Shown piece after piece: positions 37,009-42,686 of a DNA stretch of 42,882 nt. Both the position numbers and the translations under genes were made by a program. The notes beneath the pieces were generated by a model. It was not told the DNA's origin and did no database searches. It worked only from the letters and a program-made list of their open reading frames with translations. Origin of the DNA: Balneolia bacterium (GTDB taxonomy: Bacteria; Bacteroidota; Rhodothermia; Balneolales; Cyclonatronaceae); NCBI GenBank assembly GCA_022565795.1, contig JAIUMA010000025.1, forward strand, positions 1 to 42,882, read 5' to 3'. Position 1 is the stretch's first letter. Each line of letters begins with the position of its first letter.

Positions 37009-37734
37009 CTACAACCGGTTAATAAGACTGCGCAGCTTTAGCGCCCAGACCATCCAGACGGCTTCAAAAATAATGTTACGAGACATTTTCGACTCACCTT
37101 CCTCACGCTCCCTGAATATAATAGAAACTTCGCTCAGATTAAATCCGGCCATCCAGGCGCGAAAATGCATCTCTATTTGAAATGCATATCCATTCGATTT
37201 AATTCGGTGAAGCGGAATCGCCTCGAGCACCTCACGCCGAAAACACTTGAATCCGGCCGTGGTATCTTTTACGGGCAGGCCGGTGATAAAGCGCGCATAC
37301 ATATTAGCCGAATAGGATAGTATCAATCGGCTTAGGGGCCAGTTTACAATGCTGATCCCGTTATGGTAGCGCGAGCCGATTACAAGACTTGCATCATCCT
37401 TTTTAGCGGCTTCAACCAGTCTGGGAATGTCGTTGGGATCGTGTGAAAAATCCGCGTCCATTTCGCAAATATACCTGTAATCTTTCTCCAGAGCATAACG
37501 AAAGCCCTCCACGTACGCAGAACCAAGGCCCGACTTCTCTTTACGTGCCAGGAGATGAATCCGGCCCGGAAAAGCCTCACGCTGCTTGTTGATGATCTCC
37601 TGCGTACCGTCCGGGGAGTTATCATCCACAAACAAAAGGTCCACGTCGGGAACAAGACTCATCATTATCGGAATGAGCCTGCTAACATTTGACGCTTCGT
37701 TATAGGTTGGTATGATTACTAAGGTATCAGACAT
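37009..37734 (-). CDS. Dolichol-phosphate-mannose-synthase-like GT2 glycosyltransferase
   Basis: This 241-residue GT-A enzyme is related to polyprenol-monophosphomannose synthases (DPM1 type). It has [10 protein letters not shown] at residues 8-17, [11 protein letters not shown], the metal-binding segment [11 protein letters not shown], and [19 protein letters not shown] and [19 protein letters not shown] follow. There is no C-terminal membrane helix pair, so it is soluble or peripheral. It likely loads a sugar onto undecaprenyl-phosphate from a nucleotide-sugar for later envelope glycosylation; the sugar is unknown. The sugar-1-phosphate transferase precedes it by 33 bp. Confidence 0.9.
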
Positions 37735-37767: not shown

Positions 37768-39186
37768 CTACTTTCCTTTGCCTGCAAGCATCGTAAAAAT
37801 GGTATTGATGAGAATTTTGAGGTCCATCTTTAGAGAGATGTTTTCCACGTAAAACAGATCGTATTTCGTCTTTTCAATAACGTCATCGAAGGTTTCATCA
37901 TACTTCCACTTTACCTGTGCCCAGCCGGTAATGCCCGGACGCACCCTGAGTCTGCGGCTGTAAAGCGGGATCTGTTTCTTAAACTGATTCACAAAAAACT
38001 GTCTTTCCGGCCGCGGGCCAACCAAACTCATATCGCCTTTAAGCACGTTGAGCAGCTGCGGCAATTCATCAAGGCGAAGTTTTCGAAGCCAGATACCCAG
38101 AGGTGTAATCCGGGGATCGTCGTCACTGGCCCAGGTCGGTCCCGTTTTTTTCTCTGCGTTCTGGTACATGCTACGGAACTTATACATGGTGAAGGGCTTA
38201 CCGTGAAGCCCCACACGCTCCTGAGCGAAGATTACAGGCCCTTCAGAGGTTAATCGGATAAGCAAAGCCGTAAGCAGTATGACCGGCAATGTGACAATCA
38301 GAATAACGAGCGACAGCAGGATATCCATCATCCGCTTCACCGTTTTCTCCCAGGCTGGCATCGGATCCGGCATCACTACGATAAGCGGTAATCCGAAAAT
38401 CTGATTGGTTTGATTCAGACCGCTGATAATCTGGTAGAAGTCAGGCAGAATCTTGATGGTGACGTTCGGCTTTTCAATCGAATCCAGGATGTTCACCAGC
38501 TTAAAACGATCCTGTGGCTCCATCGCAACGATCACGTCTTCTGCCCCGTAATTGTCGATAATGTCGTTGATTTCATCAATGCTGCCCAAAACCAGCTTGG
38601 GATCAACTTTAGGACTAGCATCTTCTTCTTTAGCGCTCTGATCGATAAAGCCAACCACATCCAGCCCGGATGTTTTATGGCGTTCAATATCTTCATGAAC
38701 CTGCTTTGCCGTTTCCCCCACGCCCACAATGATGGCTTTGTGAAGCCCAACTCCACGCATTACCGTCGCCTTTTGTATAGTACGGACAATTAGCCTGTTG
38801 AAGGCAACAAAGGTGAAGGTAAGCAGCCAGTATATTATGGTAAAGTTCTTGGCATAGCTGATGTTGCTGGAATTCCAGTTGAGGTCATCCGTAAAGAGCA
38901 AAAAGAAGAATATGAGCGTACCAATGATGGTGATTTTCCCCACGCGCAGGATTTCATCGAAGCGGGAAATCATGTAAAGCCGCTTATAGAGACCGAAAAA
39001 GGCAAATATTGCAATCCAGAAGAAGGCAGTTACTATCGCCGGAAGCAGAACGCTGGCGGGTGCAACGAGCTGAGGCGAATCGAACAATTGGAGTTCAAAA
39101 CGGATATGGTAGAAGACGTACCACACGGCCAGCAAGGCGATAAAATCGGCCAGCAGGGTAAATATGATATCTCTTTTACGCTCCAA
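37768..39186 (-). CDS. Polyprenyl-phosphate sugar-1-phosphate transferase (WbaP/WcaJ-like)
   Basis: The 472-residue membrane protein starts polysaccharide assembly by moving a sugar-1-phosphate from a nucleotide-sugar to undecaprenyl-phosphate. Four N-terminal helices (about 8-135) and a CoA-binding-like Rossmann region (about 148-250, AIIVGVGETAKQV) precede a C-terminal catalytic domain. This domain is intact: KRMMDILLSL, FAQERVGLHGKPFTMYKFRS, the catalytic dyad LDELPQLLNVL (Asp373-Glu374), GDMSLVGPRPE, and RVRPGITGWAQV. The next genes encode a DPM-like glycosyltransferase and, on the other side of tgt, a related but degenerate homologue. Confidence 0.93.
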   Translation of the reverse strand: MERKRDIIFTLLADFIALLAVWYVFYHIRFELQLFDSPQLVAPASVLLPAIVTAFFWIAIFAFFGLYKRLYMISRFDEILRVGKITIIGTLIFFFLLFTDDLNWNSSNISYAKNFTIIYWLLTFTFVAFNRLIVRTIQKATVMRGVGLHKAIIVGVGETAKQVHEDIERHKTSGLDVVGFIDQSAKEEDASPKVDPKLVLGSIDEINDIIDNYGAEDVIVAMEPQDRFKLVNILDSIEKPNVTIKILPDFYQIISGLNQTNQIFGLPLIVVMPDPMPAWEKTVKRMMDILLSLVILIVTLPVILLTALLIRLTSEGPVIFAQERVGLHGKPFTMYKFRSMYQNAEKKTGPTWASDDDPRITPLGIWLRKLRLDELPQLLNVLKGDMSLVGPRPERQFFVNQFKKQIPLYSRRLRVRPGITGWAQVKWKYDETFDDVIEKTKYDLFYVENISLKMDLKILINTIFTMLAGKGK

Positions 39187-39394: not shown

Positions 39395-40522
39395 GTGTTC
39401 CAACTTATTAAAACCGACACAGACACAAAAGCAAGGCTCGGAAAGCTTAAGACCGACCACGGCACTATCGAGACACCTATTTTCATGCCGGTGGGAACCA
39501 TCGCCACGGTGAAGGCTGTGAATCAGTTGGATCTCGTTGAAAAGGTTAAAGCTCAAATCATCTTAGGAAATACCTATCATCTTTATTTGAGGCCCGGAAA
39601 TGAGATTATGTCCGAAGCCGGCGGACTTCATAAGTTTATGAAGTGGGACCTGCCGATTCTCACCGACTCAGGCGGATACCAGGTTTTTTCACTATCGGGA
39701 AACCGAAAGCTTGAAGAGCGCGGTGTAACCTTCAAAAGCCATATTGACGGGTCGAAGCATCAATTCACGCCCGAAAGCGTCGTGCATACCGAGCGCGTAC
39801 TTGGCTCGGATATCATGATGGTGCTCGATGAATGCCCGCCCTATCCTTCAAGCTACGAGTATGCGAAAAACTCTATGGAGCTTACCCACCGCTGGGCAGA
39901 GCGCTGCAAAACAGCGTTCGACAGCTCGGAGGGCCATTACGGACACAAGCAGCATCTTTTTGGAATCTGTCAGGGAGGCACCCATCCCGATCTTCGCAAG
40001 CAGTCGGCTGAAGCGATTGCCGAGCTAGATTTCGACGGAAACGCCATTGGCGGCCTCAGCGTAGGCGAGCCCAACGAGTTGATGTATGAAATGACCGATC
40101 TGGTTACCGACGTGCTTCCTGCCGAAAAAGCCCGCTACCTTATGGGCGTAGGCACTCCGGCGGACCTGCTGCACGGCGTTGCCCGTGGCGTGGACATGTT
40201 CGACTGCGTGATGCCAACCAGAAATGCCAGAAACGGGACGGTCTTTACACGCGAAGGTATTGTCAATATCAGGAATGCGAAGTGGAAAAATCACCAGCAA
40301 CCGCTTGATGAGTCCTTCGGCACGGACTTCACTACCAAATATACCATGTCGTATCTCCATCATCTTTTCCGCTGCAACGAGATACTTGGTATGATGGTAG
40401 CCTCGCTCCAAAACCTCACCTTTTATCTCTGGCTGATGGAAGAAGTTCGGGCGCATATTACCGATGGAACGTTTGGCAGCTGGTATCCTGAGATGGTCAA
40501 TAAAGTATCAAACAGACTTTAG
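39395..40522 (+). CDS. tgt: Queuine/preQ1 tRNA-ribosyltransferase without zinc cysteines
   Basis: This 375-residue enzyme exchanges guanine 34 for preQ1 in GUN-anticodon tRNAs. The catalytic Asp91 (TDSGGYQVFSL) and nucleophile Asp270 (MFDCVMPTRNARNG) are present, as are GICQGGTHPDLRKQSA and IGGLSVGEP. The usual zinc-binding CxCxxC is absent: the segment DESFGTDFTTKYTMSYLHHL (305-324) has Phe308, Thr310 and Thr313 in the Cys positions, with only His323 kept. The start is GTG, the first possible one. It converges with the GT2 fusion gene, 7 bp between stops. Confidence 0.95.
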   Translation: MFQLIKTDTDTKARLGKLKTDHGTIETPIFMPVGTIATVKAVNQLDLVEKVKAQIILGNTYHLYLRPGNEIMSEAGGLHKFMKWDLPILTDSGGYQVFSLSGNRKLEERGVTFKSHIDGSKHQFTPESVVHTERVLGSDIMMVLDECPPYPSSYEYAKNSMELTHRWAERCKTAFDSSEGHYGHKQHLFGICQGGTHPDLRKQSAEAIAELDFDGNAIGGLSVGEPNELMYEMTDLVTDVLPAEKARYLMGVGTPADLLHGVARGVDMFDCVMPTRNARNGTVFTREGIVNIRNAKWKNHQQPLDESFGTDFTTKYTMSYLHHLFRCNEILGMMVASLQNLTFYLWLMEEVRAHITDGTFGSWYPEMVNKVSNRL

Positions 40523-40529
40523 TACAGGC

Positions 40530-42686
40530 TTATTCAGGCCGGTTTGCCTCATTCTGCTGAGCAATATAATCTGTGAAATGACGCACCCGGCCTCTCAGGC
40601 TTCCAAACAGGATTTCAACGTCTTTCCAAATCGTGTAGGACTGCAAATAGTGCATTTCATAGCGCTCTTTCTCTTCATCACGAAACAGACGATGCTCGTT
40701 CAGCTGCCTTAATCCGGTTAGTCCCGGCTTGTAATAGATAAAGCGTCCCTGCCTTTCTTTTATGATGGGCGCCCCTACCAGACTGAATTCCCCGGTAAAA
40801 ATACGATACAGAAAAATATAGGTGTTGATGAACCGGTAGCACTGAAGCGGCTTCAAAAACGAAACGTTTACCGTAGTGGACGAGTCCAGGAAGATATTCA
40901 CGCTCGTTTTACTCGCTTTGTTGATTGAGGCGCTGATGCGCATCACCAAATAAACCGGAAATAATGCTATCAGAAGCACAGCTGATGACCAAAAATCCAG
41001 ATTGCGCTTCAGAAATCTGTTCCATGCGTTAAGTGAGGGGAGCTCCAGATCCACAACTGGTACGTCATCGAAATACTCGACGTTGGATTTACCAATAATA
41101 TAGTCCAGCGATGTGGGCACAACCTTACAAACAACCTGTGTATCCCTAAGCTGGGAAAGTGACTTCAGAACGTCTATGTGACGGATTTGATCAAGTATGA
41201 AGACGACCTGATCGGCCTTATAGCTAGATACAATTTCCGGAAGCTGTGATAGGTGCCCGAGCAGCGGGACATCATCGATGGCTTTATCAGATGATGATTC
41301 AACCTGAGACACAAGTCCCACGATTTCGTAGTTCCACTCGACCTCAGAACGAATTTTACGAATGGCTGACTGCGTTTTTTCGTCAATTCCGGCAATAATC
41401 ACTCTTACCGGGTTTAGCCGATCTCTCCCAGTAGGTGCCTTGGTGAGAAAACGGGCCGAGACATATCGATAAAGCGGAAGGATAATAAGCATCGACATGG
41501 CACTAGCCAAAAGGACGAGTCGGGAAAAGGCAAAGTCGCGGATAAAAAAGGTAACCACAACAACCGTAACGAACGAGAGCACAATCGTTTTAATCAGATT
41601 ACTTACCGAATGGAGATTCTGTCCGTAAAGAGAATAGTACTTAGCGTAAAGGAGGAAAAAGACCGTACAAAGCAGATTGACAACTAAAAACTCGAGCTGA
41701 TACTCCTGAAGAATCTGCAGCGGATGAATTTCGTAGCGATATAAGAAAAAGACGATGGTAACAATATTGAGTGTTACCAAATCGATTACAGGCCTCAGCG
41801 TTTTATTAAAGATGGTTACTACATAGGAACCGATTGACTTCAACACTATACCTGTGAGAATAAACAAACGAAAGAAAAAACTGTAGCCATAGCTGTAATG
41901 CTTCTCAAAAAACTGATACAGCGCTTTATTAAAGGTGATGATATACCGGAGATTCTCCTTTTTGGTGCTTTCACCCTTATAATGGATAATGCTGGTTTCC
42001 GGTACATAATCAATTTTATAGCCGGATTTAAGCGTGCGATAGCTAAGATCAATATCTTCTCCGTACATAAAGAAACGCTCATCGAAACCATCCAGATCTT
42101 TAAGAACATCTGTTCTGTAGAACATAAAAGACCCAGAAAGCACCTCAATTTCAGAGCCGGTGTTTTCATCTTTGTCACCCATGTAATATGATGCGAAACG
42201 TCGGCTGTTCGGGAAGATTCGGGTTAAACCGAGCACCTTATACATCGCCTTCATCGGAGTAGGTATAGACCTCCGGGATTCAGGGGCAAAGGTTCCGTCA
42301 GGGTTCAGAATTTTACAACCGCAGGCCCCAGTTTCGGGTTTGCTTTCCATATGATCGTAAAGCACCTGAAGGGTGTCTTCACTTATAAGTACATCAGGGT
42401 TGACAATAAGCGTATACTTACCTTCACACTGCCGGATAGCCTGATTATTAGCTTTCCCAAAACCGACATTTGTATCGTTTTCTATATAGATGACGTCCGG
42501 GAAACGCTGTTTTAGGAAAGGAATAGAGCCGTCAGCCGAAAAATTATCCACCACAAAGATCTGAAGACGAAACTGCCCCTGTGCCCGGTAGACCGAGTGC
42601 AGCAGATTGGCCAGATACTCTTTTACATTGTAATTGACGATTACAAGCGAGATATCGTAAGAAGAATGTTTTGTAGAGGGTTCCAA
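40530..42686 (-). CDS. GT2 glycosyltransferase fused to a degenerate phosphoglycosyltransferase
   Basis: This 718-residue protein has a GT2 domain at residues 10-250 (VNYNVKEYL, VVDNFSADGS, NPDVLI, and MYGEDIDLSYR, like rhamnosyltransferases). Four or five membrane helices (about 270-410), a Rossmann CoA-binding-like region (about 426-520) and a C-terminal sugar-1-phosphate-transferase-like domain (about 557-700) follow. The last keeps KRNLDFWSS, GEFSLVGAP and KPGLTGL. It lacks the KFRSM-type motif and the LDELPQ dyad, with Asn621-Thr622 in its place. The GT2 domain may be active and the C-terminal domain structural or regulatory. It probably acts at the cytoplasmic membrane in surface polysaccharide synthesis. 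Its gene partners lie beyond tgt. Confidence 0.85.
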   Translation of the reverse strand: MEPSTKHSSYDISLVIVNYNVKEYLANLLHSVYRAQGQFRLQIFVVDNFSADGSIPFLKQRFPDVIYIENDTNVGFGKANNQAIRQCEGKYTLIVNPDVLISEDTLQVLYDHMESKPETGACGCKILNPDGTFAPESRRSIPTPMKAMYKVLGLTRIFPNSRRFASYYMGDKDENTGSEIEVLSGSFMFYRTDVLKDLDGFDERFFMYGEDIDLSYRTLKSGYKIDYVPETSIIHYKGESTKKENLRYIITFNKALYQFFEKHYSYGYSFFFRLFILTGIVLKSIGSYVVTIFNKTLRPVIDLVTLNIVTIVFFLYRYEIHPLQILQEYQLEFLVVNLLCTVFFLLYAKYYSLYGQNLHSVSNLIKTIVLSFVTVVVVTFFIRDFAFSRLVLLASAMSMLIILPLYRYVSARFLTKAPTGRDRLNPVRVIIAGIDEKTQSAIRKIRSEVEWNYEIVGLVSQVESSSDKAIDDVPLLGHLSQLPEIVSSYKADQVVFILDQIRHIDVLKSLSQLRDTQVVCKVVPTSLDYIIGKSNVEYFDDVPVVDLELPSLNAWNRFLKRNLDFWSSAVLLIALFPVYLVMRISASINKASKTSVNIFLDSSTTVNVSFLKPLQCYRFINTYIFLYRIFTGEFSLVGAPIIKERQGRFIYYKPGLTGLRQLNEHRLFRDEEKERYEMHYLQSYTIWKDVEILFGSLRGRVRHFTDYIAQQNEANRPE

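Follow-up and report, generated by a model that had tools for sequence, protein, structure and literature searches.

The window analysed here, a stretch of 42,882 nucleotides from a Balneolia bacterium, encodes close to its end a protein in which a GT2 glycosyltransferase is joined to a large phosphoglycosyltransferase (LgPGT) half that has lost its catalytic residues. That this LgPGT half is a pseudoenzyme is well supported by the comparison of homologues, and it very probably has no PGT activity. We favour the reading, with a probability of about 50%, that the GT2 sits on a pseudo-LgPGT assembly platform, which would pair with the neighbouring initiating transferase and place the GT2 for addition of the second sugar. 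The earlier note on this DNA had described the single protein; beyond this, the fusion family is ancient and spans two phyla.

Architecture of the fusion and its eroded active site

The fusion and its neighbours comprise the following features, with positions given for the window.

40530-42686, reverse strand: GT2 - pseudo-LgPGT fusion protein, 718 aa, TTG start (ORF list, Pfam, NCBIfam, AlphaFold2 model)
41901-42665, reverse strand: GT2 (GT-A) catalytic half, residues 8-262 (PF00535 match, intact motifs)
41427-41900, reverse strand: helices matching the LgPGT four-TM bundle, residues 263-420 (TIGR03025, models, alignment to WbaP 8t53)
41112-41426, reverse strand: Rossmann-like DUF (PF13727), residues 421-525 (Pfam, models)
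41043-41099, reverse strand: predicted hairpin, residues 530-548, IIGKSNVEYFDDVPVVDLE (alignment to 8t53, model strands, low dN)
40587-41030, reverse strand: pseudo-PGT domain, residues 553-700, with a re-entrant-type helix, eroded active-site loops and a conserved core (Pfam, alignments, dN, Foldseek)
40821-40826, reverse strand: N621-T622 where active enzymes have the catalytic Asp-Glu dyad (alignments)
40767-40793, reverse strand: GEFSLVGAP motif, residues 632-640, kept, with the Arg of VGPRP gone (alignments)
40710-40730, reverse strand: KPGLTGL motif, residues 653-659, kept (alignments)
39395-40522, forward strand: tgt (queuine tRNA-ribosyltransferase), which separates fusion and partner in Balneolales alone and is outside the system
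37768-39186, reverse strand: partner, a complete LgPGT with KFRSM, RLDELPQ and SLVGPRPE (Pfam, motifs, tree clade)
37009-37734, reverse strand: GT2 of the conserved trio PGT - GT2 - fusion (PF00535)

The N-terminal half is a GT-A domain of the GT2 type (PF00535, residues 13-198, E 8e-23), in which the motifs NPD, FDE.FFMYGEDIDL and HYKGEST are intact. NPD and GEDIDL, the acidic (N)PD and ED motifs of this class, are conserved in the homologues, and the mean column identity of this half among 85 homologues is 0.54. Behind it the fusion has the layout of an LgPGT, namely an N-terminal four-TM bundle and a PF13727 DUF (residues 359-524, E 6e-16) ahead of the PGT domain, with a TIGR03025 match spanning residues 301-584. 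PF02397 is matched only at profile positions 94-173 of 179 (residues 626-696, E 2e-9) and thus not over its full length. The WbaP-type layout with Asn621-Thr622 at the Asp-Glu position, which had been proposed from the letters of the DNA, was borne out by these Pfam matches and by an ungapped alignment of the fusion stretch RFINTYIFLYRIFTGEFSLVGAP with a 23-residue stretch of an active enzyme, anchored at GEFSLVGAP. In alignment to active enzymes the fusion lacks KFRSM, DPRIT and the Arg of VGPRP, and retains GEFSLVGAP and KPGLTGL.

The loss is common to the family. Neither the Asp-Glu dyad nor KFRSM was found in any of 88 distinct fusion loci from Balneolales, other Bacteroidota and Calditrichota, and among the fusions read from 296 Bacteroidota and 40 Calditrichota genomes there was no homologue of the same architecture that keeps the dyad. 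At the dyad positions 44 different residue pairs occur in the 88 loci: in Balneolales mostly Asn plus a variable residue, elsewhere free variation. Since these positions vary freely outside Balneolales, no replacement dyad is visible, and the homologue alignment of the dead domain contains no new invariant acidic pair either. In most Bacteroidota homologues outside Balneolales the active-site loop is mostly deleted.

The fold has been retained in the predicted structure. The AlphaFold2 model of the full-length fusion has a mean pLDDT of 84.5, and its Foldseek search returned GT-A glycosyltransferase structures among the top matches. Because the GT2 half dominates the full-length search, the C-terminal half was modelled separately (mean pLDDT 83.5). 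Its best match is WbaP 8t53 (E 1.4e-13, TM 0.59 by target length), and PglC 8g1n is matched with TM 0.60-0.63. With dyad loss in every homologue examined and the fold kept in the model, the pseudoenzyme proposed in the earlier note gains clear support. Neither of the two findings named there as refuting it was obtained.

In the structure of WbaP, a hairpin of residues Asn251-Gln268 is exchanged between both chains of the dimer (PMC10942596). A profile alignment places GKSNVEYFDDVPVVDLE of the fusion opposite NTDMSFIFSHEVMLLRIQ of WbaP, a stretch of 18 residues of which the first is Asn and the last is Gln. From this alignment and the match in numbering we read NTDMSFIFSHEVMLLRIQ as the probable domain-swap dimerisation hairpin, and the corresponding block of the fusion, which carries two strands in the model (536-539 and 542-546), as a hairpin with the same predicted role. 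The pLDDT of this block is lower (62-79), and the hairpin is likewise of lower confidence in a model of the WbaP monomer (PMC10942596).

Conservation and spread of the dead half

Throughout Balneolales there are homologues that match the fusion in length and domain order. Fusion homologues were found in 89 of 296 sampled Bacteroidota genomes (E<=1e-18), nearly all as frames of more than 640 aa, and in most of 40 Calditrichota genomes; search matches of ~200-220 aa were small PGTs and were not counted as fusions. The 88 distinct loci read in context comprise 26 from Balneolales, 23 from near Bacteroidota, 16 from deep Bacteroidota and 23 from Calditrichota, a recurrence that takes the feature far beyond chance. 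In a tree of 101 LgPGT regions all 50 fusion LgPGT halves fall into a single clade (SH-aLRT 100), as would be expected had the fusion arisen once, long ago. A homologue on a contig titled Deltaproteobacteria (L041) was rejected as a third lineage: its genome is listed under one phylum with the Calditrichota genomes, and it is near-identical to L042 in the aligned region. The contig title is probably wrong.

Between the window fusion and relatives at 67-77% identity dS is mostly saturated. Because this holds even among near relatives, dN by segment is reported instead of dN/dS. In the fusion dN is 0.09-0.27 in the core (residues 619-700), 0.00-0.07 in the hairpin and 0.42-0.66 in the former active-site loop. 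The mean column identities among 85 fusions follow the same segments, with 0.03 for the loop, 0.21 for the dyad helix, 0.26 for the DUF, 0.37 for the hairpin, 0.49 for SLVGxP and 0.51 for KPGLTGL. In 47 live partners the corresponding values are 0.89 for KFRSM and 0.72 for the dyad helix. Eleven positions are invariant in Balneolales and Calditrichota together (G532, P543, K560, R561, G632, G638, G655, G658, Q661, Y680 and D689). Taken together, segment dN and column identities indicate purifying selection on the dead half, in which the catalytic parts are lost and the structural parts kept.

In four Balneolales (G025, G042, G057 and G056) a shortened fusion stands beside an intact PGT and the GT2 is kept. 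The proteins of the first three have about 400 aa. They retain the GT2, followed by a stretch ending in GKS whose match to the DUF end is weak and only suggestive (conditional E 0.0004-0.006 in the two shown). The G056 protein ends after the GT2 region. A shortened dead half beside a retained GT2 implies that the dead half is accessory or dispensable in those few lineages.

The shortened genes lie at the same syntenic place and have clean ends next to tgt (L248:2474-3685, L249:3062-4258, L250:7332-8543 and L251:7195-12999). The ending (V/I)GKS(R/K) of three of them resembles the start of the hairpin. In a closed relative tRNA-Ile and tRNA-Ala (L045:3959-4161) lie upstream of the fusion, which suggests an rRNA operon there; such an operon may explain why many assemblies, that of the window included, break just upstream of the fusion.

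The neighbouring LgPGT and the Calditrichota partner

The genome of the window has three PF02397 proteins: the LgPGT at 37768-39186, a small one of 186 aa and the fusion. As had been pointed out from the letters, a complete enzyme lies across tgt, and with KFRSM, RLDELPQ and SLVGPRPE it is indeed a full LgPGT, the only one found in this genome assembly. The GT2 at 37009-37734 we take to resemble a dolichol/polyprenyl-phosphate sugar synthase.

An LgPGT on the same strand and less than 4 kb from the fusion is present in 24 of 26 Balneolales, 23 of 23 near Bacteroidota, 20 of 23 Calditrichota and 6 of 16 deep Bacteroidota loci. In Balneolales and near Bacteroidota this partner is intact. The three Calditrichota loci that lack a nearby LgPGT are at contig ends. 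Among the deep Bacteroidota, no LgPGT lies within 4 kb of 10 of the 16 fusions, and the hairpin has diverged in several. One genome (G008, an assembly 87% complete) has the fusion and no other PF02397 protein. On the tree of 101 LgPGT regions, the partners group in a single clade (99) separate from the remaining LgPGTs in the sample, all of them from Calditrichota genomes.

In Bacteroidota outside Balneolales the gene order is LgPGT, in some loci an aminotransferase or Wzi-type gene, the Dpm-like GT2, the fusion, accA, a thioesterase gene, nadC and a flippase-like gene. In one Balneolales family a homologue of PorZ (type IX secretion), often with a short GT2, is found directly upstream of the fusion (L053:4553-6991 and its equivalents in family f4). 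This neighbour hints, as a lead only, at the glycan by which cargo of type IX secretion is anchored.

The Calditrichota partner joins WecA to an LgPGT in one chain of 816-852 aa in the loci read (L042:2586-5129, L043:4408-6942 and L185-L203). Its gene usually abuts or overlaps the GT2-fusion gene, with frequent overlaps of 3-54 bp. The WecA motifs (DD, NLLDGLDGLA, HxHH) are intact in every Calditrichota partner read and the LgPGT dyad is lost, with YK in 19 and NR in 1. Four Bacteroidota loci have a WecA-LgPGT partner of the same design in which Asp-Glu is intact, and both types fall together in one clade (98). A 730-aa partner (L215), labelled 'LONG', has no WecA motifs and was left out of the WecA fusions.

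Judged by its residues, the Calditrichota WecA-LgPGT is a second conserved pseudo-PGT. Most simply read, catalysis was taken over by WecA, and both subunits retained the LgPGT fold for assembly. A fold that is kept in both subunits where neither LgPGT copy has catalytic residues should have a non-catalytic use, and the Calditrichota case is the strongest argument for such a use.

Proposed role and known systems

Our proposal builds on what could be read from the sequences, namely the architecture, the loss of catalytic residues, the purifying selection on the remainder, the hairpin correspondence and the gene pairing. The catalytically dead LgPGT half would keep a working GT2 at the inner membrane, on its cytoplasmic side, and would act as a structural module made of the four-TM bundle, the DUF, the dimerisation hairpin and the membrane-interface core. 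Through DUF and hairpin the fusion would pair with the adjacent LgPGT in the manner of a WbaP dimer, and the GT2 would add the second sugar to the undecaprenyl-PP-sugar just made by the partner. For the heterodimer of fusion and initiating transferase we see the chances as evenly balanced, and that the GT2 provides the second sugar of a lipid-linked glycan is likewise inferred. More tentatively, the two phyla may share a starter complex in which dead LgPGT modules serve as pure heterodimerisation scaffolds that join an initiating phosphoglycosyltransferase to a second glycosyltransferase, with both LgPGTs dead in Calditrichota and the chemistry moved to the fused WecA; we hold this to be somewhat less probable than the pairing itself.

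Three observations favour the idea of a membrane platform, already raised in the earlier note: the dimerisation hairpin is conserved, so is the neighbour, and in Calditrichota both subunits keep the fold. The idea still goes a step further than these observations, and the allosteric subunit that the note had offered as its other option may apply as well. The shortened dead halves of four Balneolales, the deep fusions with no LgPGT nearby or with a diverged hairpin and the G008 genome speak against our proposal, and the shared neighbourhood could reflect one pathway without contact between the proteins.

Several of these points suit another explanation, in which the dead half does no more than anchor the GT2 to the membrane and let it homodimerise, and the neighbouring PGT acts in that pathway unbound. 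A GT2 whose acceptor is lipid-linked has to be placed at the membrane, the dead half retains TM bundle, DUF and hairpin, and both G008 and 10 of 16 deep fusions do without an LgPGT at hand. However, a plain TM anchor would not require 150 residues of conserved PGT core, and the fusion accompanies one LgPGT clade over two phyla, with a second dead LgPGT kept in the Calditrichota partner. We regard this explanation as rather unlikely, at odds of roughly one to three.

Less probable again is a ligand-sensing or acceptor-presenting subunit, in which the DUF senses uridine nucleotides and a remnant pocket binds Und-P or Und-PP-sugar, thereby regulating the GT2 or the neighbouring PGT. The DUF of WbaP has been implicated in uridine nucleotide binding and UMP inhibits WbaP (PMC10942596), binding of a protein that favours dimerisation can control an LgPGT, as with EpsW-EpsZ (PMC12802240), and SLVGxP and PGLTGL are retained in the fusion. 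The DUF, however, ranks with the more variable parts of the dead half (mean column identity 0.26).

A C-terminal half that is decaying and has no function would account for the missing dyad and active-site loops, the loop deletion in most Bacteroidota outside Balneolales and the shortened half in a few Balneolales. This is very improbable for a half that has been kept in a single clade across two phyla, whose dN is low and which has residues invariant in Balneolales and Calditrichota. Continued phosphosugar transfer via substitute residues, for which the retained fold could be cited, is the least probable of all given 44 residue pairs at the dyad, the loss of KFRSM and of the Arg of VGPRP and no newly conserved acidic residue.

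Studies of lipid-linked glycan assembly usually treat the enzymes of its first two steps one by one, and what the non-catalytic domains of LgPGTs do is only now coming to light. Retained over two phyla beside a live sister, the pseudo-LgPGT is a natural separation-of-function mutant, and whatever is conserved in it has to have a purpose besides catalysis. If the pairing is true, the system would offer a direct test of the hand-over of Und-PP-sugar from the PGT to the second glycosyltransferase inside a complex, and it would reveal the purpose of the TM bundle, DUF and hairpin. The open-access literature searched yielded no description of a pseudo-PGT family.

Among known systems, WbaP of Salmonella enterica (a large monotopic PGT, PDB 8t53) gives the best fold match to the C-terminal half. 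The two can be aligned over the TM bundle, the PF13727 DUF, the hairpin and the PGT core. WbaP differs in being an active homodimer that has the dyad and no GT2, whereas the fusion lacks both dyad and KFRSM and begins with a GT2. The bi-PGTs, monotopic PGTs with a second functional domain (named in PMC10942596), likewise combine a PGT fold and another enzyme domain in one chain. In these the added domain sits on an active PGT catalytic domain; the PGT half of the fusion is of the large form and its catalytic residues are gone, so that the fusion is not a bi-PGT, and the working PGT is a separate neighbour. WecA, a polytopic PGT, is represented by the WecA-type domain (PF00953) with intact motifs in the partner of Calditrichota and some Bacteroidota, but this domain shares a chain with an LgPGT, in which the Asp-Glu dyad has given way to YK or NR in Calditrichota and is retained in the four Bacteroidota loci. 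For EpsZ-EpsW of myxobacteria it has been proposed that an LgPGT is controlled via assembly with a partner protein (PMC12802240); EpsW, however, is a response regulator and neither an LgPGT homologue nor a glycosyltransferase.
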